In this document: positions 1 through 10,265 of the stretch, one piece after another | How positions within the stretch are numbered: position 1 is the stretch's first letter | Layout of the letters: every line of letters starts with the position of its first letter | NCBI GenBank assembly: GCA_020354555.1 | Contig: CP070648.1 | Span: forward strand, 1,019,183 to 1,052,195 | Direction of reading: 5' to 3' | DNA from: Armatimonadota bacterium | Lineage (GTDB): Bacteria > Armatimonadota > Hebobacteria > GCA-020354555 > CP070648 | DNA: 33,013 nucleotides | Program-made: the position numbers and the translations under genes | The notes under the pieces: generated by a model | What the model was told of the DNA's origin: nothing | Database searches by the model: none | Seen by the model: the letters and a program-made list of their open reading frames with translations, nothing else

Positions 1-242
1 ACCACCGTGTCAATGTTGACGACGCTCGGCGTGACGGCCCGCGCGACTGTCGCAAATGACGGCGGGACGCTCATGTCCGGCGCCGCGGCCATGACCCGCT
101 GCATTGCGGGCGGAGCGAGCCGGCTGTGGCTCAGCGCGAGCACGAGCCACGACGCGGCAAGGCCGCCGACGAATCCTGCTGCGACTGCAGCAGCGATAAC
201 GGGACTGAGGGTGCGTATGGGCGAAATGCTGCGATCTCTCAT
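1..242 (-). CDS. HtrA/DegP-like S1C serine protease, N-terminal part (cut by window edge)
   Basis: The minus-strand frame opens with ATG at 242-240 and stays open for 80 codons to the window edge, so only the N-terminus is present. Residues 1-10 are basic/polar, residues about 14-38 form one hydrophobic segment (an uncleaved anchor or signal peptide), and the segment FATVARAVTPSVVNIDT near residues 63-79 matches the start of the trypsin-like domain in the HtrA/DegP family (pattern F...v..v.PsVVnI.t). Members are envelope proteases or chaperones that degrade misfolded exported proteins; the catalytic His-Asp-Ser triad and PDZ domains would lie outside the window. The gene follows ribH on the same strand after about 120 nt, and I see no strong ribosome binding site before the ATG. 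The call rests on the short N-terminal motif and on the membrane segment. Confidence 0.68.
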   Translation of the reverse strand, partial: MRDRSISPIRTLSPVIAAAVAAGFVGGLAASWLVLALSHSRLAPPAMQRVMAAAPDMSVPPSFATVARAVTPSVVNIDTV

Positions 243-363: not shown

Positions 364-843
364 CTACTTCCCTTTCCGCGGGAGCTGCGCCATCAGGTTC
401 GCCATCTCGATGGCGCTCATCGCCGCGTCGAAGCCGCGGTTGCCGGCCTTGGTGCCGGCGCGCTCCACCGCCTGCTCGATGGTGTCGGCGGTGACGATGC
501 CGTAGATCACCGGCACCCCGGTCTGCAACCCCGCCTGGGCGATGCCCTTCGACGCCTCCGCCGCGACGTATTCGAAGTGTGGTGTCGCGCCGCGGATAAC
601 CGCGCCGAGGCAGATCACCGCATCGTATTTCCCGGTCTGCGCGAGCTTCTGCGCCGCGAGCGGGATCTCGAACGACCCCGGCACCCAGGCGACCTCGACC
701 TGCGACTCCTCCGCGCCGTGACGCTGCAGCGCGTCCATCGCTCCGCCCAGCAGCCGCCGCGTGATGAACTCGTTGAACCGGCTTGCGATGATGGCGAAGT
801 TGAGTCCCTCCGCCGTCAGCTTGCCCTCATAGGTCTTCGGCAT
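364..843 (-). CDS. ribH: 6,7-dimethyl-8-ribityllumazine synthase
   Basis: This 159-residue protein condenses 5-amino-6-ribitylamino-uracil with 3,4-dihydroxy-2-butanone 4-phosphate to make lumazine, the next-to-last riboflavin step, in the cytoplasm. Family motifs are visible in order: SRFNEFIT (21-28), [11 protein letters not shown] (54-64), [13 protein letters not shown] (80-92) with the catalytic His at 89, and the C-terminal [15 protein letters not shown] block (123-137) followed by AIEMANL. The length is normal for the family. The frame extends 10 codons upstream, but the ATG at 843 is chosen because AAGGAG (855-850) sits 6 nt before it and the protein then begins like its relatives. It lies downstream of ribBA on the same strand with a 118-nt gap that contains a perfect 9-bp hairpin just before the ribosome binding site. 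Confidence 0.96.
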
Positions 844-849
844 ATATCG

Positions 850-855
850 CTCCTT
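850..855 (-). promoter_or_regulatory. Ribosome binding site that fixes the ribH start
   Basis: AAGGAG on the minus strand, 6 nt before the ATG at 843-841. It selects this ATG over the longer in-frame ATG at 873. Confidence 0.8.
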
Positions 856-860
856 TTGTG

Positions 861-882
861 GCACAGCCGCCATCGGCTGTGC
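861..882 (-). repeat. Perfect 9-bp hairpin directly upstream of the ribH ribosome binding site
   Basis: GCACAGCCG (861-869), loop CCAT, CGGCTGTGC (874-882). It lies in the ribBA-ribH gap and ends 5 nt before the ribH ribosome binding site on the transcribed strand. No T-tract follows, so it does not look like a terminator. It could be an mRNA processing or stabilising hairpin, or a copy of a dispersed palindromic repeat like the ones seen at several other gene boundaries in this window. Confidence 0.7.
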
Positions 883-961
883 AAGGCGTCGGGTGAGGAT
901 TGCCTGTGATTATTCCCCGGGCCCGCTATCGGCGTCCATGCGCGGTTTCAACGCCGCGCCA

Positions 962-2161
962 TCAGTCCACTGGCAACTGGTGCCCCAGCTTGTCCCGCTT
1001 CGCGCGCAGATAGCACGCGTTTTGCTCGGTCGGCGGCACCGCCAGCGGCACCTGCTCGACGATCGTCAGCCCGTAGCCCTGCAACCCGACCAGCTTCTTC
1101 GGGTTATTCGTCATCAACCGGATGTTCTTCAGACCCAGGTCAACCAGCACCTGCGCCCCGATGCCGTAATCGCGCAGGTCGGCGGGGAAGCCGAGCAACT
1201 CGTTCGCCTCGACCGTGTCGTGCCCGCCGTCCTGCAGTTCGTACGCACGCAATTTGTTCAACAACCCGATGCCGCGTCCCTCCTGGTGGACATAGAGCAG
1301 TACCCCGCGCCCGGCGTCCTGGATCATCTTCATCGCCAGTTCTAACTGCGCCCCGCAGTCGCAACGGCAGGAGTGAAAGACATCGCCCGTCACGCAACTC
1401 GAGTGCACGCGCACCAGCGTCCCGTCCTGGGTGACGTCGCCGAGCGTGAGCGCGAGGTACGGGTTGGTGTCCACGACTGATTCATAGGCGTGCGCGGTGA
1501 ACGTCCCGAACGGCGTCGGGAGCGTGGTCGTCGCCAGGCGGCGCACCAGCTTCTCGGTCCGCCGCCGGTACTGAATGAGGTCGGCAATCGTCATCACCTT
1601 GGAGCTGTGATCGGCGCCGAATTTCTCCAGGTCCGGCAGGCGTGCCATGCTGCCGTCGGGGTTCTTGATCTCGCAGATGGTGGCGATGGGTTTCAACCCC
1701 GCCAGCCGCGCGAGGTCAATCGCGGCCTCGGTGTGCCCCGAGCGGTGGAGCACGCCGCCCGGCTCGGCCATCAGCGGCTGCACGTGGCCGGGCCGGACGA
1801 AATCCTCGGCATGGGCGTGCGGATCCGCGAGCTTGCGGATCGTCGCCGCCTGGTCCGCGGCGGAGATTCCCGTCGTCGTGATGCCCTTGGCGTCCACGGT
1901 GACGGTGAATGCGGTGCGGTAGCGCTCGGTGTTGTCCGTCACCATGAGCGGGATGTCGAGCGCGCGCAAGCGCTCGCGCTCCATGGGCACGCACAGCATC
2001 CCGCGCGCGTGGATCTCCATGAAGTTGACCGCGGCGGGCGTGATGAACTCGGCGGCCATGATGAGGTCGCCCTCGTTCTCGCGATCCTCATCATCCACGA
2101 CGATCACGAAATTGCCGGCGCGTATTTCCGCCAGCGCTTCTTCTATGGTTGCGAACGGCAT
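962..2161 (-). CDS. ribBA: Bifunctional 3,4-dihydroxy-2-butanone-4-phosphate synthase / GTP cyclohydrolase II
   Basis: At 399 residues this is a normal-length RibBA fusion supplying both branches of riboflavin synthesis. The N-terminal half makes DHBP from ribulose 5-phosphate: DDEDRENEGDLI (23-34) is the acidic metal/substrate loop, and RPGHVQPL (123-130) and RSGHTEAAIDLARLAGL (140-156) complete that site. The C-terminal half (about 205-399) opens the imidazole ring of GTP: HSSCVTGDVF with C256, C267 and C269 forms the zinc site, and VHQEGRGIGL holds the catalytic region. Position 255 is Ser where E. coli RibA has Glu (HSEC); I would not read much into this. The ATG at 2161 has GAGG about 5 nt upstream. 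A TATAAT box at 2228-2223 suggests its own promoter, separate from ribD-ribE transcription, with ribH downstream. Confidence 0.96.
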   Translation of the reverse strand: MPFATIEEALAEIRAGNFVIVVDDEDRENEGDLIMAAEFITPAAVNFMEIHARGMLCVPMERERLRALDIPLMVTDNTERYRTAFTVTVDAKGITTTGISAADQAATIRKLADPHAHAEDFVRPGHVQPLMAEPGGVLHRSGHTEAAIDLARLAGLKPIATICEIKNPDGSMARLPDLEKFGADHSSKVMTIADLIQYRRRTEKLVRRLATTTLPTPFGTFTAHAYESVVDTNPYLALTLGDVTQDGTLVRVHSSCVTGDVFHSCRCDCGAQLELAMKMIQDAGRGVLLYVHQEGRGIGLLNKLRAYELQDGGHDTVEANELLGFPADLRDYGIGAQVLVDLGLKNIRLMTNNPKKLVGLQGYGLTIVEQVPLAVPPTEQNACYLRAKRDKLGHQLPVD

Positions 2162-2222
2162 AACCGCCTCATATGCTCTCTTAGCCGCGGATAGACGCGA
2201 TGGACACCGATTCGACTGTTTT

Positions 2223-2228
2223 ATTATA
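2223..2228 (-). promoter_or_regulatory. Candidate -10 box of the ribBA promoter
   Basis: The minus strand reads TATAAT, a perfect sigma-70-type -10 hexamer, about 60 nt before the ribBA ATG. No good TTGACA-like -35 is seen at 16-18 nt spacing. The implied leader is about 55 nt, which is too short for a full FMN riboswitch aptamer. Confidence 0.55.
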
Positions 2229-2291
2229 GCCGAAATCGCGGGACGACAGGGCGCGTTTTGCCCGACGAAAGGCGGAATGGGGGATCAGTAG

Positions 2292-2311
2292 GGGCGTACG
2301 GCTGTACGCCC
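2292..2311. repeat. Short palindrome between the 232-residue membrane protein gene and ribBA
   Basis: GGGCGTAC (2292-2299), loop GGCT, GTACGCCC (2304-2311): a perfect 8-bp stem just downstream of the stop of the membrane-protein gene. It is preceded by GTAGG. No T-tract follows on the minus strand. It is built like the other intergenic palindromes in this window and may be a dispersed repeat or a transcript-end hairpin. Confidence 0.6.
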
Positions 2312-2329
2312 TGGCCTAGCCCAGCTCGT

Positions 2330-3028
2330 TTACGCCGTGTGCCGTGGAGGGGACGGAGCCGCGGTATGGCCCGCCGCCGGCGCTTGACCCATCTTGCGCG
2401 CCAACCGGCCGTAATACCAGAGTTGCAGGTCGACGAGGCTCATGGTCAGCAACAGCAACAACATAGCCCAAAAGACCAATCGAGATGAGATTCTGTATTC
2501 AAGGATGAAGGCGATAAAGGCTGTGCCGAAGCCGATCCATGCCGCACCTGCCACCAAATACCCTGCCCACACCCGGAGCCGAATCCGCAAAGGCAATTCA
2601 TCCCATCGCAGCGGTATCTCCGGGGATCCTCGCCGCGCGAGCGCAGCCAGGCGTAAAGCCCTACCGGCCCGCAGCCGTGGCAGCATCGCCAAGGCGGCGC
2701 CTATGGTGAACACCGCCCAGGCGATCATTGCGCACCCCGCCGCGTAGACACCCACCCGCACTACCTCGTCAAGCGCCGCGATGAACCTGTGGCGCACGTT
2801 ATCCGGATGTGGACCAAGCAATGGATCCAAGACGCCCCCTTCGAGCGCCGCGCCGAGCGGGAGTAACGCTATCCAGATGACCCCTGCGAAGGCGCCGACA
2901 GCCAGCAGTGGACTTGCCTCTTTCCGCCGGACGCTGGCAACCACCACGACCAATATGGCAATCATGACCGCGAGTGCCATCCCGCCGAGGATCAACGCCG
3001 GCATGTCGTTGTCCCAGTCAGCTTGCAT
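2330..3028 (-). CDS. Multi-pass membrane protein of unknown function in the riboflavin operon
   Basis: This 232-residue protein matches no family that I recognise. About five hydrophobic segments are visible (near 10-32, 41-62, 90-115, 150-175 and 180-202), with a basic loop around residues 118-145 and a polar Pro/Ala-rich C-terminal tail. The ATG at 3028 overlaps the end of the preceding 68-residue gene by 11 nt, which implies translational coupling; an alternative ATG lies eight codons downstream. Because it is the last gene of the ribD-ribE transcription unit, a link to flavin handling or transport is conceivable, but nothing in the residues shows it; the length and helix number are only loosely like an ECF substrate-binding component. 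Real coding is supported by operon position and consistent hydrophobic layout. Confidence 0.7.
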   Translation of the reverse strand: MQADWDNDMPALILGGMALAVMIAILVVVVASVRRKEASPLLAVGAFAGVIWIALLPLGAALEGGVLDPLLGPHPDNVRHRFIAALDEVVRVGVYAAGCAMIAWAVFTIGAALAMLPRLRAGRALRLAALARRGSPEIPLRWDELPLRIRLRVWAGYLVAGAAWIGFGTAFIAFILEYRISSRLVFWAMLLLLLTMSLVDLQLWYYGRLARKMGQAPAAGHTAAPSPPRHTA

Positions 3029-3224
3029 GGCCCACCCCCGCCGCGCCGACCGCGAATGCCAACGCTATTGTGGCCACGACTACGACCGCAACGTACCAAG
3101 CCGGAATCCGGTCGTACCATCCGACCTCGCCGCCGCGGGTACGCACCAGGCGGCGGTGTGCAAGCACGAGCACGGCACCCCAGGCGACATAGGCAGCGAA
3201 CTTGACAACATCCGATGTCGTCAC
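3018..3224 (-). CDS. Small two-helix membrane protein, unknown function
   Basis: A 68-residue protein with two hydrophobic segments (about residues 7-24 and 43-66) separated by a short polar loop containing a run of Arg residues. Its ATG (3224-3222) overlaps the ribE stop codon in an ATGA arrangement, and its own stop lies within the start region of the next membrane-protein gene, so all three are probably translated from one mRNA by coupling. I know of no named family for it. Its small size means the coding call depends on these overlaps and on the membrane-like composition. A partner role with the following 232-residue membrane protein is a reasonable guess from adjacency only. Confidence 0.62.
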   Translation of the reverse strand: MTTSDVVKFAAYVAWGAVLVLAHRRLVRTRGGEVGWYDRIPAWYVAVVVVATIALAFAVGAAGVGHAS

Positions 3225-3883
3225 AGATACCCCCCCTCGCCGAGCTTGTCGAGGGTCAAGCCATCCACATCCGTCTGCGCCTGCACCCGGCCCTCCCGGT
3301 ACTCCAGCAGCCGTTCCAGGTATCGCGCGAGCAGGTCGCCCTCCAGGTTCACCTCATCGCCGGGGCGCAGGTCGCCCAGCGTTGTGGCATCCAAGGTATG
3401 GCGCACCAGCGAAACGGTAAACGAGGCCTCCGCCGTCTCGGCTATGGTCAGGCTTACTCCATCCACAGCTACCGACCCCCGCGGCGCGAGGTAGGGCTGC
3501 ACCGCCTGCGGCGCCAAGACTGTCAGCAGCACCGATTCGCCCCTCTGCTCGCGCGCGCTGACCGTCCCGACCGCGTCCACATGCCCCGCGACCAGGTGCC
3601 CGCCGACGGGATCATTCAACGTCAGCGGCAATTCGAGATTCACCCGCGAGGCGGGGCGCAGCTTGCCCAGCGTGGTTTTCGACGCCGTCTCGGCCATGAC
3701 GGACGCGACGAAGGCGTCGTCCTGCTCGCGCTCGGCGGTGAGGCAGACACCGTGCACGCACACGCTGTCGCCGACGCGCAGCCGCGGCGCGGTCTGCGGC
3801 GCGGCAACCGTGACATTGAGCCCCTGTGCCGCGCGAGCAATCGTGCGAACCGCCCCGACCTCAGTTATGATGCCCGTGAACAT
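3221..3883 (-). CDS. ribE: Riboflavin synthase (alpha-type)
   Basis: This 220-residue protein dismutates two lumazine molecules to riboflavin plus the pyrimidine precursor. The near-universal family start MFTGIITEVG fixes the ATG at 3883, although the frame stays open 36 codons further upstream. The two tandem lumazine-binding repeats are visible: the first contains LRVGDSVCVHGVCLT (around residues 39-53), and the second contains LAPRGSVAVDGVSLTI (around 131-146) and ends with an RHTLDATTLGDLRPGDEVNLEGD block. The length is normal. It lies about 120 nt downstream of ribD on the same strand and overlaps the next small membrane-protein gene by 4 nt (ATGA). The ribosome binding site is weak (GAGG about 12 nt before the ATG). 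Confidence 0.95.
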   Translation of the reverse strand: MFTGIITEVGAVRTIARAAQGLNVTVAAPQTAPRLRVGDSVCVHGVCLTAEREQDDAFVASVMAETASKTTLGKLRPASRVNLELPLTLNDPVGGHLVAGHVDAVGTVSAREQRGESVLLTVLAPQAVQPYLAPRGSVAVDGVSLTIAETAEASFTVSLVRHTLDATTLGDLRPGDEVNLEGDLLARYLERLLEYREGRVQAQTDVDGLTLDKLGEGGYL

Positions 3884-4003
3884 GATGCGTCGTGCCTCTT
3901 CGTCGGAGCCGGGCTCTGCCCCCGTTCGCCAATTCGGCCCGTACCGATCATGATAACCTGCACACGGCGCTGATGCCGGCGAAGGGCTCACCCCGACGCC
4001 CGC

Positions 4004-5110
4004 TTACGCACTGTGCAGGTATCCCTCTATGACAAGATCCTCCCCAATGCGGCGACAGCGCATGTCGGCGACCGGCCACGCCTCCGCGATCGCCTCGACG
4101 CCGCGCCCTGCCACCGCCGTCGGCGCCTCGGCCCCGCCGATGATCTTCGGCGCGATGAAGACGACGATCTTGTCCCCCAGATCCTGCTCGATGAACGAGG
4201 CAACCAGTTCGCCCCCGCCTTCGACGAGCAAGGCGGCGACCTCCCGCCGCCCCAGCTCCTCCAGCAGCGCGGCGAGATCCACACGCCCCTCGCGACTCGG
4301 CAACGCGATGACCTCGGCGCCCTCTCTGCGCAGCGCCTCGACGGCTTCGCCGCGCGCGCGGTCGGTGACCGCGATGAGCCCCGGCGGGTCGCCGCCATGG
4401 ATAACCTTGGCGCTGCGCGGCGTGCGCGCCTCGCTGTCGACGACGACGCGCAGCGGCTGGCGACGGGCGCGTCCGTGCCGCACCGTCAGCGCCGGGTTGT
4501 CGGCGAGCACGGTGCCGATCCCCACCATCACCGCATTGCTGTTGCGCCGCATGCGGTGTGCCATCGCGCGCGCGCGCTCCCCCGTGATCCACCGCGATTC
4601 GCCGGTACTCGTCGCGATCTTTCCGTCCAAGCTCATCGCGATCTTGAGTGTGACGAAAGGCCGACCGGTCGTCATGTATTTCCGATAGGCCTCGTTGAGG
4701 CGGTTCTCCTGCTCTCGCAGCAGCCCGGCCTCGACCTCGATCCCCGCCTGGCGCAGCGCCTCGATCCCCGCCCCCGCGACCTTCGGGTTGGGGTCCTCCG
4801 AGGCGACGACCACTCGCGCCAAGCTCGCCTCGCACACCCTCGGCGCGCACGGCGGCGTCCGGCCGTGATGGGTGCATGGTTCGAGGGTCAGATACATCAT
4901 CGCCCCGCGCGCCTTTTCCCCCGCCTGTTCGAGGGCGACGATCTCGGCGTGCTTCGTCCCGGGCCCGCGGTGATACCCCGCCCCAACGACCGCCTCGCCG
5001 GAGACGATTACCGCGCCGACCATGGGATTAGGGCTCGCCTCGCCTTGCCCGCGCAGGGCCAAACGCAGCGCTTGGCTCATCAACCGCTCGTCCGCGTCAG
5101 TCGTCGGCAT
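4004..5110 (-). CDS. ribD: Bifunctional diaminohydroxyphosphoribosylaminopyrimidine deaminase / 5-amino-6-(5-phosphoribosylamino)uracil reductase
   Basis: At 368 residues this is a full-length RibD. The N-terminal cytidine-deaminase-like domain shows the zinc site HAE (54-56) with C79 and C88 in LEPCTHHGRTPPC. The C-terminal reductase domain begins near RPFVTLKIAMSLDGKIA and includes GESRWITG and the GIGTVLADNP segment that binds NADPH and substrate. It carries out steps 2 and 3 after GTP cyclohydrolase II. The ATG at 5110 is preferred: it overlaps the end of the upstream membrane-protein gene by 14 nt and gives a family-like N-terminus, whereas the frame's first ATG at 5221 would add 37 residues lying inside that neighbour. 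It is co-transcribed with ribE downstream. Confidence 0.95.
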   Translation of the reverse strand: MPTTDADERLMSQALRLALRGQGEASPNPMVGAVIVSGEAVVGAGYHRGPGTKHAEIVALEQAGEKARGAMMYLTLEPCTHHGRTPPCAPRVCEASLARVVVASEDPNPKVAGAGIEALRQAGIEVEAGLLREQENRLNEAYRKYMTTGRPFVTLKIAMSLDGKIATSTGESRWITGERARAMAHRMRRNSNAVMVGIGTVLADNPALTVRHGRARRQPLRVVVDSEARTPRSAKVIHGGDPPGLIAVTDRARGEAVEALRREGAEVIALPSREGRVDLAALLEELGRREVAALLVEGGGELVASFIEQDLGDKIVVFIAPKIIGGAEAPTAVAGRGVEAIAEAWPVADMRCRRIGEDLVIEGYLHSA

Positions 5111-5513
5111 CTGGAATATCCGGCCCGTCCTCGCCGCGGTCGCGGCGGATGCGCTCGGCCAGCACGCGGGCGAAATCGCGCCAGATTTCGTGCTCCCGAT
5201 CACGGCGGCGATTCTCGACATGCCGCAGGTCAGCCAGGGCGAGGAACATAAGGATGACCGCGATGGCGAGGCATCCCAGCCACCATGCCAGGAACAGCAC
5301 GGGTCGGCCTGTTGGGCTGCGCAGGCCCAAGATGAACAGTCCGAGGAATATGGCCGTGATCAAGCAGAGCAGAAGCAGGCCCCCCAGCATCCGCAGCCCT
5401 ACCTGCCGCCGCGAGATGACGGTCCTGCGCGCCTGCCATTCCCGTGCCTCGACGAGCATGAGAATGATCACGCCGATCCCGAGCGCCGGCAACAGGATGG
5501 ATAGCACGTACAT
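5097..5513 (-). CDS. Small membrane protein heading the riboflavin operon
   Basis: A 138-residue protein with three hydrophobic segments (about 3-20, 42-65 and 72-95) followed by a highly charged, Arg/Asp/Glu-rich tail of about 40 residues that is likely cytoplasmic. I recognise no family. The gene ends 14 nt inside ribD, so the two are probably coupled, and it is the first gene of the minus-strand unit leading into ribD, ribE and two more membrane genes. Upstream, the 138-nt gap to the sulfatase-fold gene holds that gene's terminator and a weak -10 (TATCAT, 5545-5540). I looked in that gap for the conserved FMN-riboswitch segments and did not find them. Confidence 0.68.
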   Translation of the reverse strand: MYVLSILLPALGIGVIILMLVEAREWQARRTVISRRQVGLRMLGGLLLLCLITAIFLGLFILGLRSPTGRPVLFLAWWLGCLAIAVILMFLALADLRHVENRRRDREHEIWRDFARVLAERIRRDRGEDGPDIPDADD

Positions 5514-7168: not shown

Positions 7169-8878
7169 TTACCCTGCCGCGCAGCGCAGCGTGCGCAGGC
7201 GGTTGATGGCGCCCGCGATCTCCCATCGCCGCGGGCGCGCGTAATCGCCGGACTTGCCCGGCACTGCCGCGAGGAGCCCGCGCGCGTCGAGCAGCTCGTT
7301 CAATCGGTCGAGCCCTTGCGTCAGCGTTGTCTCGCCGTCGAAGATGTACTGAGCGGCGTGGTGGATGAGCCAGCCGATCGCGCGCGATTGAGCGGGATCA
7401 ACAAGCTGCTCCAGCGCGGACAGGTCTATGTGCTCGGTGCCGAAGTCAATGCCCCGCGTGCCCCGCGGCCTGATCTTCACCGTGCGCCCGCGATAGGGGT
7501 CGAAGCTCGCGGCAACCGGCATGCGCGGGCGCAGGTCGGTAAACCGCTTGGCGGATTCTTCTCGCCGCTGGCTGGCATAGGCGCCGGCGATCCGCTTCGC
7601 CTCCGGCGTCACGTCGGTGACGTGATAGCTGTCGAGCATGATGACTCTATCCGCGACGTCGAAGTAGTCGCCGGAACCGCCCATGACGAGTATCGTTGAA
7701 ACTCCGAGGTCCTGTTCGAGCAGGCGCACCGTGTCAATCAGCGGCGTGATCGGCTCTTTGTCCTTGGCGACGAGTTCCTGCATCCGCTTGTCGCGGATCA
7801 TGAAGTTGGTCGCGGAGGTGTCCTCGTCAATGAGCAGCAGGCGACTGCCTGCCTCCAGGGCTTCGATGATATTCGCGGCCTGCGACGTGCTGCCGGACGC
7901 GTTGGGCGTCGTGAATGCGCTCGTGTCCTGGCCGAACGGCAGGTTGGAGATGAACGGGCTGATGTCCACCTCGCTGATGCTGCGCCCGTCCTCCGCACGG
8001 ATCTTCGCGGCGTCGGCGCATGTTACAGCCAGCTCCCGGCCGTCACCCGGGATATGGTTGTACACCCCGAGGCTGATGGCGTCGAGCAGCGTGGATTTGC
8101 CGTGATACCCGCCGCCGACGATGAGGGTTATTCCCTGGGGGATAGCCATCCCGGCGACCCCCCCGCGATTGGGTAGGTCGAAGTTGACGCGCAGCGAAGG
8201 AGGGCTCGCGAACGGCACCGCTGTGTCGCCCAGCGGTCGATCACTGACGCCGCTCTCGCGCGGCAGCACCGCGCCGTCCGCGACGAAGGTGACCAGCCCC
8301 TGCTCGCGCAGGCACGCCCGCAAGAAGTCGGCATCATCGGCCATCTCGACGTGACAGCGCGCGGCATGGCCATCGAGGCTGCCATAGAACAGCGACTGCC
8401 CAACGATCTCCGGCACTTCGTCGAGCAGCATTCGCTCCGCTTCGGCCCCCGCGATGGTGCGCCCGAACGCCGGCAGGCCGATGAAGAACCTGGCCTCCAC
8501 CACCCGTTCGCTCACCTCGACGCTGGTGCGCTCCAGGATCTCCTGGCCGCATGGCAGCATCTCGATGAGGCCGCTCTTACCGCTGCCGCGCCGCCCTTTG
8601 CGCACTCGGCCGCACGCGGCGCCGAACGCGCGCGTCAGGTAGTCCTCGAGACCGGTCCGGCGCGACTTTGTCGAGAACAGTTCACGCGGAAGCCGCGCGC
8701 GCGCCTGCTCGACGACCACGCGCGCCTCGCTCGGCGGAGCGAAAGGGTCGCTCTGCACGCGGTCAATGTGAAGCACGTAATCGGGGAAGCCGTACGCGCC
8801 CTTGAGATCTTTGTACGCGCCGTAGCCCCGGCGGTCTATCCGGCGCAGCTCGTTTCGCAAATCGTTGGCTTGTCGCAT
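7169..8878 (-). CDS. ABC-class P-loop ATPase (PF09818-type), function unknown
   Basis: A 569-residue protein matching the predicted 'ATPase of the ABC class' family, whose trypanosome relative MRB1590 is linked to RNA editing; the bacterial role is not established. Seen in order: the N-terminal family block with KDLKGAYGFPDYVLHIDRVQ (24-43), Walker A GGGYHGKST (255-263), a signature-like ASGSTSQAAN (327-336), Walker B LLLIDEDTSA (347-356), and a late basic C-terminal domain with RGTRGIDFG. There are no membrane segments, so it is not a transporter subunit. The ATG at 8878 is chosen because family members start close to NDLRNELRRID; the frame above it is Pro/Ala/Arg-rich and unlike the family. 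The ribosome binding site is weak. It diverges from the cysteine-block membrane protein at 9084 and lies upstream of the sulfatase-fold gene on the same strand. Confidence 0.9.
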   Translation of the reverse strand: MRQANDLRNELRRIDRRGYGAYKDLKGAYGFPDYVLHIDRVQSDPFAPPSEARVVVEQARARLPRELFSTKSRRTGLEDYLTRAFGAACGRVRKGRRGSGKSGLIEMLPCGQEILERTSVEVSERVVEARFFIGLPAFGRTIAGAEAERMLLDEVPEIVGQSLFYGSLDGHAARCHVEMADDADFLRACLREQGLVTFVADGAVLPRESGVSDRPLGDTAVPFASPPSLRVNFDLPNRGGVAGMAIPQGITLIVGGGYHGKSTLLDAISLGVYNHIPGDGRELAVTCADAAKIRAEDGRSISEVDISPFISNLPFGQDTSAFTTPNASGSTSQAANIIEALEAGSRLLLIDEDTSATNFMIRDKRMQELVAKDKEPITPLIDTVRLLEQDLGVSTILVMGGSGDYFDVADRVIMLDSYHVTDVTPEAKRIAGAYASQRREESAKRFTDLRPRMPVAASFDPYRGRTVKIRPRGTRGIDFGTEHIDLSALEQLVDPAQSRAIGWLIHHAAQYIFDGETTLTQGLDRLNELLDARGLLAAVPGKSGDYARPRRWEIAGAINRLRTLRCAAG

Positions 8879-9031
8879 CGTTTCCGGCGGAGTGAATCCG
8901 CTGCCTGCGACGTGTTCGCGGCGCGGTGACAGCGCTCCTGCCCTGCACGATGGCGGCGCACGCTGCATCTGCATGAGCGGGGAACATACGCCAGGGCGCG
9001 GCGCGAGGTTCCCAGCGCCGCCCGCGCGTGG

Positions 9032-9083: not shown

Positions 9084-10265
9084 ATGGGTCAGCGCATCGA
9101 GCGAAAACGCCGCAAGCAGCCCGAAGGCCCTCCGAGCGTGGCGGGCGCGGCGCTGTATCTGCTCGACCGCCTGCTCATGGTAGCCGCCGCGGCCGTCGGC
9201 ATTGCGATCTTCTATCTGCTCCATTCCCTGATCTCCGGGAATACCGCCGCGTTCCCCAAAATGCCGACCGGCGAGCTGCTCTCTCCCGCCGTGCAGGAAC
9301 AGTTCATCCACGGCCTGCGCGTCGCGTCCTACGTCTTCATGGGGGGCATGTGGGGCATCACCGCCGTCAGCATCTTCCGCTTCCGCGAAAACGACGTCGC
9401 CGGCTGGGTTGGAGGCTTCGGGGGAGTGCTGTGCTACGTCGCCTTGCCGTGGCTCGTGCGCAGTGCGCTGATGCACCACAACGCCAATCCCAATGTCGCC
9501 AGCGATCTGCTGCTCGCGTCGTTCCGCGCGACTGGCAAGGTGCTGCTGCTGATTACGATTGTCTATTTCGCGGTGAAGGTGATGGTGCGTCTGAAGAACC
9601 GTCCGGCCCGTGCGGCCGCCGCTTCCGCACCCATGGTGCTCGACACCGATCAGCCGCACAAGCCGGCCGAGAAGACCGCGCCACGCCGCACGATGCTGCG
9701 CCAGTGCTGGGAACTCTCGATGTGCCGCGACACCCTGCGCGAGAACTGCCCGAGCTTCAAGCTCGACGCCACCTGCTGGAAGCGCGGCACCGGCTGCCAG
9801 TGCGACCCGATTCTCGCGCGGCGGCTGATCGACGACCTGGAACGCAAGCTGCGCGGGGAAATCCCCGAGAAGGAGCGCATTGCCCGCGAGCGCATGAAGG
9901 AGCAACTCAACTACCGCATCGCCGAGCACCAGGGCGAATCATACTGTCGCTCGTGCCCGATCTACAACGAGCACCAGTACTACAAATACAAGGCATTCTT
10001 CTGGCTCGCCTATCCCATCACCGGGGCGCTCGTCTTCGTGCTCCTGCCCGTCATCCATACGGTTTACCGTTGGATTGACGTGTCGGTGGGCCAGATGCTC
10101 GACTCGCTCCAGATGCTCCCTCACAACGAGCAGGCGCTGCGCCCGTTCGTCACCACGGTTTACCACTTCAACGCCGAGTTTATCTTCGTCGCCTCAGCCG
10201 CCTTGATCATCGCCGCCTACCTGCTCGACCTCGTGGACTACGCGGTGTTCCAGGCAAAGCTTTAG
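9084..10265 (+). CDS. Six-helix membrane protein with a cytoplasmic-type eight-cysteine 'two-CW-like' block
   Basis: A 393-residue protein. Hydrophobic segments lie near residues 22-50, 78-99, 108-128, 150-168, 305-327 and 365-386. The long loop between helices 4 and 5 carries a patterned cysteine set: C208-W, C214, C222-P, C231-W, C238-x-C240, then after about 47 mostly charged residues C288-R-S-C291-P. This CW...C...CP...CW...C...CxxC order resembles the small 'two-CW' domain, but with an insertion of likely helical, charged sequence before the last pair; the resemblance is from memory of the pattern. Such a set would suit a zinc or iron-sulfur site. I recognise no named full-length family. 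The ATG at 9084 is preferred over GTG at 9060. It is a single gene between divergent and convergent neighbours. Confidence 0.78.
   Translation: MGQRIERKRRKQPEGPPSVAGAALYLLDRLLMVAAAAVGIAIFYLLHSLISGNTAAFPKMPTGELLSPAVQEQFIHGLRVASYVFMGGMWGITAVSIFRFRENDVAGWVGGFGGVLCYVALPWLVRSALMHHNANPNVASDLLLASFRATGKVLLLITIVYFAVKVMVRLKNRPARAAAASAPMVLDTDQPHKPAEKTAPRRTMLRQCWELSMCRDTLRENCPSFKLDATCWKRGTGCQCDPILARRLIDDLERKLRGEIPEKERIARERMKEQLNYRIAEHQGESYCRSCPIYNEHQYYKYKAFFWLAYPITGALVFVLLPVIHTVYRWIDVSVGQMLDSLQMLPHNEQALRPFVTTVYHFNAEFIFVASAALIIAAYLLDLVDYAVFQAKL

Follow-up and report, generated by a model that had tools for sequence, protein, structure and literature searches.

A conserved six-helix membrane protein of Armatimonadota with an eight-cysteine module related in pattern to the two-CW domain

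The window, the whole stretch of 33,013 nucleotides analyzed here, encodes a six-helix membrane protein with eight cysteines, which belongs to an unnamed family without a match in Pfam, NCBIfam, or the PDB. The family is best explained as a core membrane protein of Armatimonadota passed on by vertical inheritance, and its conservation suggests that it is probably important. Its membrane architecture is new for what is a known kind of cysteine module. We propose that the cysteines form a cytoplasmic module binding two metals, probably Zn2+, at a site A and a site B, and that the module serves in sensing or docking within this core membrane protein, a reading to which we assign an even chance.

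The features of the gene and its neighbor are summarized in Table 1. The homolog from the sister genus is full-length and co-linear with the window protein, sharing 62% identity and the same start methionine. The AlphaFold2 model of the window protein, based on 45 homologs, consists of six long helices with a mean pLDDT of 80. The cysteine loop, with a pLDDT of about 50–79, lies between helices 4 and 5, in agreement with a previous reading based on the sequence only (hereafter, the sequence-only reading); the eight cysteines that it listed all occur, in that order, in the 393-residue translation. Charge counts over 145 homologs gave a mean of 0.3–0.4 lysines and arginines for each of the three loops across the membrane from the cysteines, whereas the cysteine loop, the stretch preceding it, and both termini carry these residues and lie on the positive side. 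This distribution therefore places the cysteine module in the cytoplasm. A domain model built from 138 module sequences (pLDDT 83, pTM 0.63) is all helical, with the spacer folded as two helices. Fold searches of the PDB with the whole protein and with the cysteine domain yielded no match at E ≤ 0.001. The window protein has no Pfam match at the gathering level, and the weak Pfam matches of other members are scattered singletons. Sequence searches of Pfam, NCBIfam, and the PDB with 45 members produced chance-level matches only, such as ExtQ (E = 0.0064 in 2 of the 45).

Table 1. Features of the eight-cysteine gene and its divergent neighbor (positions in the window)
Feature	Positions	Strand	Basis or remark
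CDS, six-helix eight-cysteine membrane protein, 393 aa, ATG start	9084..10265	+	Translation and homolog alignment
Predicted membrane helices 1–4 (residues 19–50, 68–99, 105–131, 138–181)	9138..9626	+	AlphaFold2; positive-inside charge counts
First cysteine segment, C208W-x4-C214-x7-C222P-x7-C231W-x4-GC238-x-C240 (C1 to C6)	9705..9803	+	Translation, homolog alignments
Charged spacer, 47 residues, predicted two helices (hairpin)	9804..9944	+	Homolog spacings; domain model
Second cysteine segment, C288xxC291-x-IY-x-EHQ-xx-K301-Y (C7, C8), running into helix 5	9945..9989	+	Homolog alignments
Predicted membrane helices 5 and 6 (residues 292–342, 349–390), conserved acidic residue at 385	9957..10253	+	AlphaFold2; homologs
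Divergent neighbor, PF09818 ABC-class ATPase	7169..8884	-	Not conserved beside the eight-cysteine gene

All eight cysteines, together with Trp209, Trp232, Gly237, and Lys301, are invariant in all 46 homologs that were retrieved independently of the motif. In the second cysteine segment, His297, Gln298, and Lys301 form a nearly invariant set. The cysteine spacings 5-7-8-6-1-(24..92)-2 are kept in 142–145 of 145 homologs; since some loci in this tally were retrieved through the C7/C8 motif itself, the unbiased counts for Cys288 and Cys291 are those from the 46 homologs. The spacer between C6 and C7 ranges from 24 to 92 residues, with a median of 42, among eight-cysteine homologs, and the 47 residues of the window protein are therefore ordinary. 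The sequence-only reading had treated this charged segment as an insertion, a view that we correct, as every eight-cysteine member possesses the spacer and it is thus not peculiar to the window protein. Among 156 full-length non-redundant homologs, the block contains eight cysteines in 151, nine in three, four in one, and none in one, and never five to seven; homologs lacking most of the cysteines are thus confined to two sequences. Such an arrangement lies far beyond chance. Accidental placement, or the formation of disulfides by the cysteines, is highly improbable: the even number of cysteines speaks for disulfides, but the loop is cytoplasmic by charge and the invariance is nearly absolute. 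In the membrane part, conservation of at least 70% is restricted to Gly52, Gly114, Pro122, Gly151, and the acidic residue ending helix 6.

Natural variants provide clues to how the cysteines may be grouped. The four-cysteine homolog L064 (positions 539–1576, minus strand; genome G101) has lost C1, C4, C5, and C6 together. It has also lost C2 and gained a cysteine at position 219, which leaves a CxxC...CxxC pair, while its nearest relatives (37–43% identity) keep all eight cysteines. The same relocation of C2 to position 219 is found in family f23, in which the total remains eight. In the zero-cysteine homolog L258, the whole block is gone, but the membrane frame persists, together with the LEYFFF motif at the C-terminus. 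The four-cysteine and zero-cysteine cases are one sequence each, both from draft assemblies. In genus g134, C5 and C6 are adjacent, with CC in place of CxC. The gene copies at L165 and L204 are split into two frames within the cysteine block, likely through sequencing or assembly frameshifts.

The joint loss of C1, C4, C5, and C6 with retention of CxxC...CxxC points to two four-cysteine sites, and metal binding is suggested by the invariance of the cysteines and their loss in fours. From the single four-cysteine sequence and the relocation of C2, we infer that site A would comprise the four thiolates of Cys214, Cys222, Cys288, and Cys291 (C2, C3, C7, and C8), while site B would comprise those of Cys208, Cys231, Cys238, and Cys240 (C1, C4, C5, and C6). 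In this arrangement, the hairpin of the charged spacer would return the C-terminal CxxC to the first six cysteines. The helix bearing CxxC-xIYxEHQxxK would continue straight into helix 5, and owing to this continuity the state of the metal or thiols, or a bound partner, could affect the part in the membrane. Either metal loading or thiol oxidation may be passed to the membrane helices, or the module may dock a partner there. The anatomy, the invariance, the single-copy distribution over the phylum, the profile similarity to cysteine modules of regulators, and the loss of cysteines four at a time are established here, whereas the identity of the metal, the geometry of the sites, and the role in sensing or docking are what we infer. 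With the natural four-cysteine and zero-cysteine variants, the metal-site layout of a widespread but unexplained cysteine module, that of the two-CW domain and its relatives in sensor kinases and regulators, becomes directly testable.

The choice between zinc and iron–sulfur depends in part on the distribution of the family over lifestyles. The class of the window has been described as anaerobic, while Armatimonadota outside the new marine classes have been described as mainly aerobic (PMC10290634). One or two [4Fe-4S] clusters held by the eight cysteines could respond to oxygen or to the redox state, or could pass electrons on to a partner in the membrane; eight cytoplasmic cysteines would be enough for two clusters, the class of the window is anaerobic by that description, and the loss of cysteines in fours suits clusters as well as zinc. 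However, Fimbriimonadia and Chthonomonadia conserve the family just as well, the four-cysteine variant retains a CxxC...CxxC pair of the type usual for zinc knuckles, and the membrane helices contain no conserved heme-ligand histidine or charged residue. We therefore regard iron–sulfur clusters as rather unlikely. Zinc would be favored over them because the invariance spans classes described as aerobic and classes described as anaerobic, and because of the CxxC...CxxC variant. The lack of any histidine or charged residue conserved inside the membrane helices of the 46 homologs also argues against a heme or ion relay, and it leaves the redox relay put forward in the sequence-only reading unsupported as a relay through the membrane. 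Other parts of that reading are supported: the cysteine domain is cytoplasmic and membrane-anchored and shows kinship with sensory or regulatory proteins, namely MerR and XRE regulators and GAF-histidine kinases.

The family is present in 198 of 205 Armatimonadota genomes that are at least 90% complete, nearly always as one copy, according to a profile search, and in 269 of 291 genomes of the phylum according to a single-sequence search. This protein, still without a name, occurs nearly throughout a whole phylum and in single copy, which makes it usable as a marker, and its conservation extends alike to classes described as aerobic and to classes described as anaerobic. A degenerate-DNA scan of the GTDB genome set for the CxxC...EHQxxK motif detected at least 120 stretches, and 118 of the 120 listed encode the family. 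The named carriers among the matches listed are almost all Armatimonadota, including Fimbriimonadia, Chthonomonadia, Zipacnadia, and Hebobacteria; the two non-family stretches among them are one Actinomycetes and one Thermoguttaceae record. No full-length member was found in 199 Planctomycetota genomes (the phylum of the Thermoguttaceae record) or in the 198 Actinomycetota genomes sampled, both of which gave cysteine-module matches or weak stretches only. Neither a plasmid search with the cysteine loop nor a single-protein scan of genome contigs returned a match.

Two apparent carriers from other phyla were rejected. The record titled Methanoregulaceae archaeon SJ84 (L097, JADZEW010000030.1) is probably mislabeled, as its coordinates match those of a genome assigned to Armatimonadota family f15. 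The supposed Bacillota carrier seems to be one of the genomes already assigned to the class of the window. Two genomes of the taxonomic family to which the window belongs, G000 and G001, carry two copies each, namely the window copy and one at 3.909 Mb that is 30% identical. This second copy of the window genome (L036/L005) has an iron-type alcohol dehydrogenase as its neighbor, an arrangement shared by other members of the class. A few further genomes show two matches, and in G053, G054, G055, G060, and G090 these represent one gene in two pieces or a contig break.

The divergent PF09818 ATPase noted in the sequence-only reading is real in the window, where it and a sulfatase lie between the eight-cysteine gene and a riboflavin cluster (ribD, riboflavin synthase, ribBA, and a further conserved gene; positions 364–5221, minus strand). 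In the sister genus, both the ATPase and the sulfatase are missing, and the riboflavin genes are close to the eight-cysteine gene. Since the ATPase is missing beside the ortholog, this neighbor carries no functional information, and we rejected it as a functional partner. The commonest upstream neighbor is efp, encoding elongation factor P, which immediately precedes the eight-cysteine gene, in the same orientation, in 65 of 118 loci among the matches listed. The gaps range from 4 to 186 nt, mostly below 60 nt, and about half are 18 nt or less. The efp-linked loci proceed with the RNA 3'-phosphate cyclase gene (rtcA) or accB-accC, in places with nusB. These neighbors (efp, rtcA, accB, and accC) are housekeeping genes, not metal or redox genes, which weighs against the proposed metal-site reading, and the linkage to efp is absent in all loci labeled Zipacnadia or Hebobacteria among the matches listed.

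This gene order bears on the possibility that the metal sites are purely structural, so that the module would be a zinc-stabilized docking platform for a housekeeping complex, for instance of translation with EF-P or of acetyl-CoA carboxylase, with no sensing. The near-universal, single-copy occurrence and the efp–rtcA or efp–accB-accC order agree with such a platform, and the conserved His297, Gln298, Lys301, and Glu385 at the cytoplasmic face could form a contact surface. Nevertheless, related modules occur in sensor kinases and regulators, and the efp linkage, absent from the Hebobacteria- and Zipacnadia-labeled loci, may be inherited gene order only. A purely structural platform is thus credible but unlikely. 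The occurrence of a related cysteine module in gene regulators and sensor kinases makes the protein a good candidate for a sensor of metal or redox state anchored in the membrane. A more ambitious scenario, which we consider quite doubtful, would see in it a membrane sensor of metal or redox state that defines the phylum and has a new two-site Cys4 fold. A regulator-type module would then have been split by the hairpin and built into a membrane protein in the Armatimonadota ancestor, and the sensor would act with EF-P and the fatty-acid and translation cluster.

The two-CW domain (NCBIfam NF045718) offers the first comparison. It shares the order CW...C...CP...CW...C...CxxC and the first spacing C-W-x4-C, and it is likewise a small cytoplasmic cysteine module; the short two-CW forms also share C2-x7-C3 and an arginine three residues before C3. 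In contrast to the compact two-CW domain of about 80 residues and seven cysteines, the Armatimonadota protein has eight cysteines, with CxC in place of one cysteine, a helical spacer of 24–92 residues before the CxxC, and a location inside a six-helix membrane protein. The NF045718 model (cut-off 35 bits) found no match at E ≤ 1 in any of 45 members, and the loop of the window protein alone did not match it either. Profile–profile comparison (hhalign) of the family with Armatimonadota two-CW domains gave a score of 34.9 (E = 1.8e-6), whereas 100 shuffles with the Cys and Trp columns fixed reached at most 29.6; the alignment covers C1–C4 only. For the short two-CW subset, the score was 27.6 against a shuffle maximum of 25.1. 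The family module thus resembles the two-CW domain, as the sequence-only reading had proposed, but by the NF045718 model is not a member. The short forms have seven cysteines, with one of the C5/C6 pair missing, and an invariant histidine two residues before C4. Among them are the XRE-type HTH regulators L182, L183, and L188, in which this histidine before the fourth cysteine may belong to a Cys3His site. In Armatimonadota, true two-CW domains occur in fusions with GAF-histidine kinases, PAS proteins, and XRE-type HTH regulators. The window genome itself encodes, at 3.566 Mb (L172:1480-3042), a GAF-histidine kinase with a genuine N-terminal two-CW domain; it has no membrane part predicted in Pfam and lies directly behind a response-regulator-like gene.

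With zinc-knuckle and rubredoxin-like CxxC...CxxC domains, the likeness is limited to the four-cysteine variant L064, whereas the usual member has one CxxC only. The comparison with rubredoxin-like and zinc-ribbon proteins revealed no sequence or fold match of the family to any solved structure. Further counterparts are 62-residue Actinomycetota proteins (e.g., L216), which share the eight cysteines in the form CW-x4-C-x7-CPAY-x5-CW-x4-GCLC...CxxCPIFxxH and differ in having no membrane helices and a spacer of about five residues. The family profile matches them at E = 6e-12 to 2e-9, and hhalign of the family against these compact proteins gave E = 6e-12 and a score of 58, compared with a shuffle maximum of 44. 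In L214–L217, the stand-alone 62-residue protein is encoded behind a conserved gene for 86 residues, whose product resembles a ribbon-helix-helix protein by eye and has no Pfam match. The profile also matches MerR regulators weakly (E = 2.7e-4). These differ from the family in bearing a C-terminal CW module with seven cysteines and no membrane helices; at L213 (1267-2471), two MerR regulators stand in tandem, each with such a module. Both the compact eight-cysteine form and the fusions with MerR, XRE, and GAF-histidine-kinase proteins connect the module with regulation. Given its profile similarity to the compact, MerR, and two-CW modules, the module of the family belongs to a broader set of regulation-linked cytoplasmic cysteine modules. 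Within this set, the Armatimonadota protein reads as a membrane-built version, equipped with a helical spacer.
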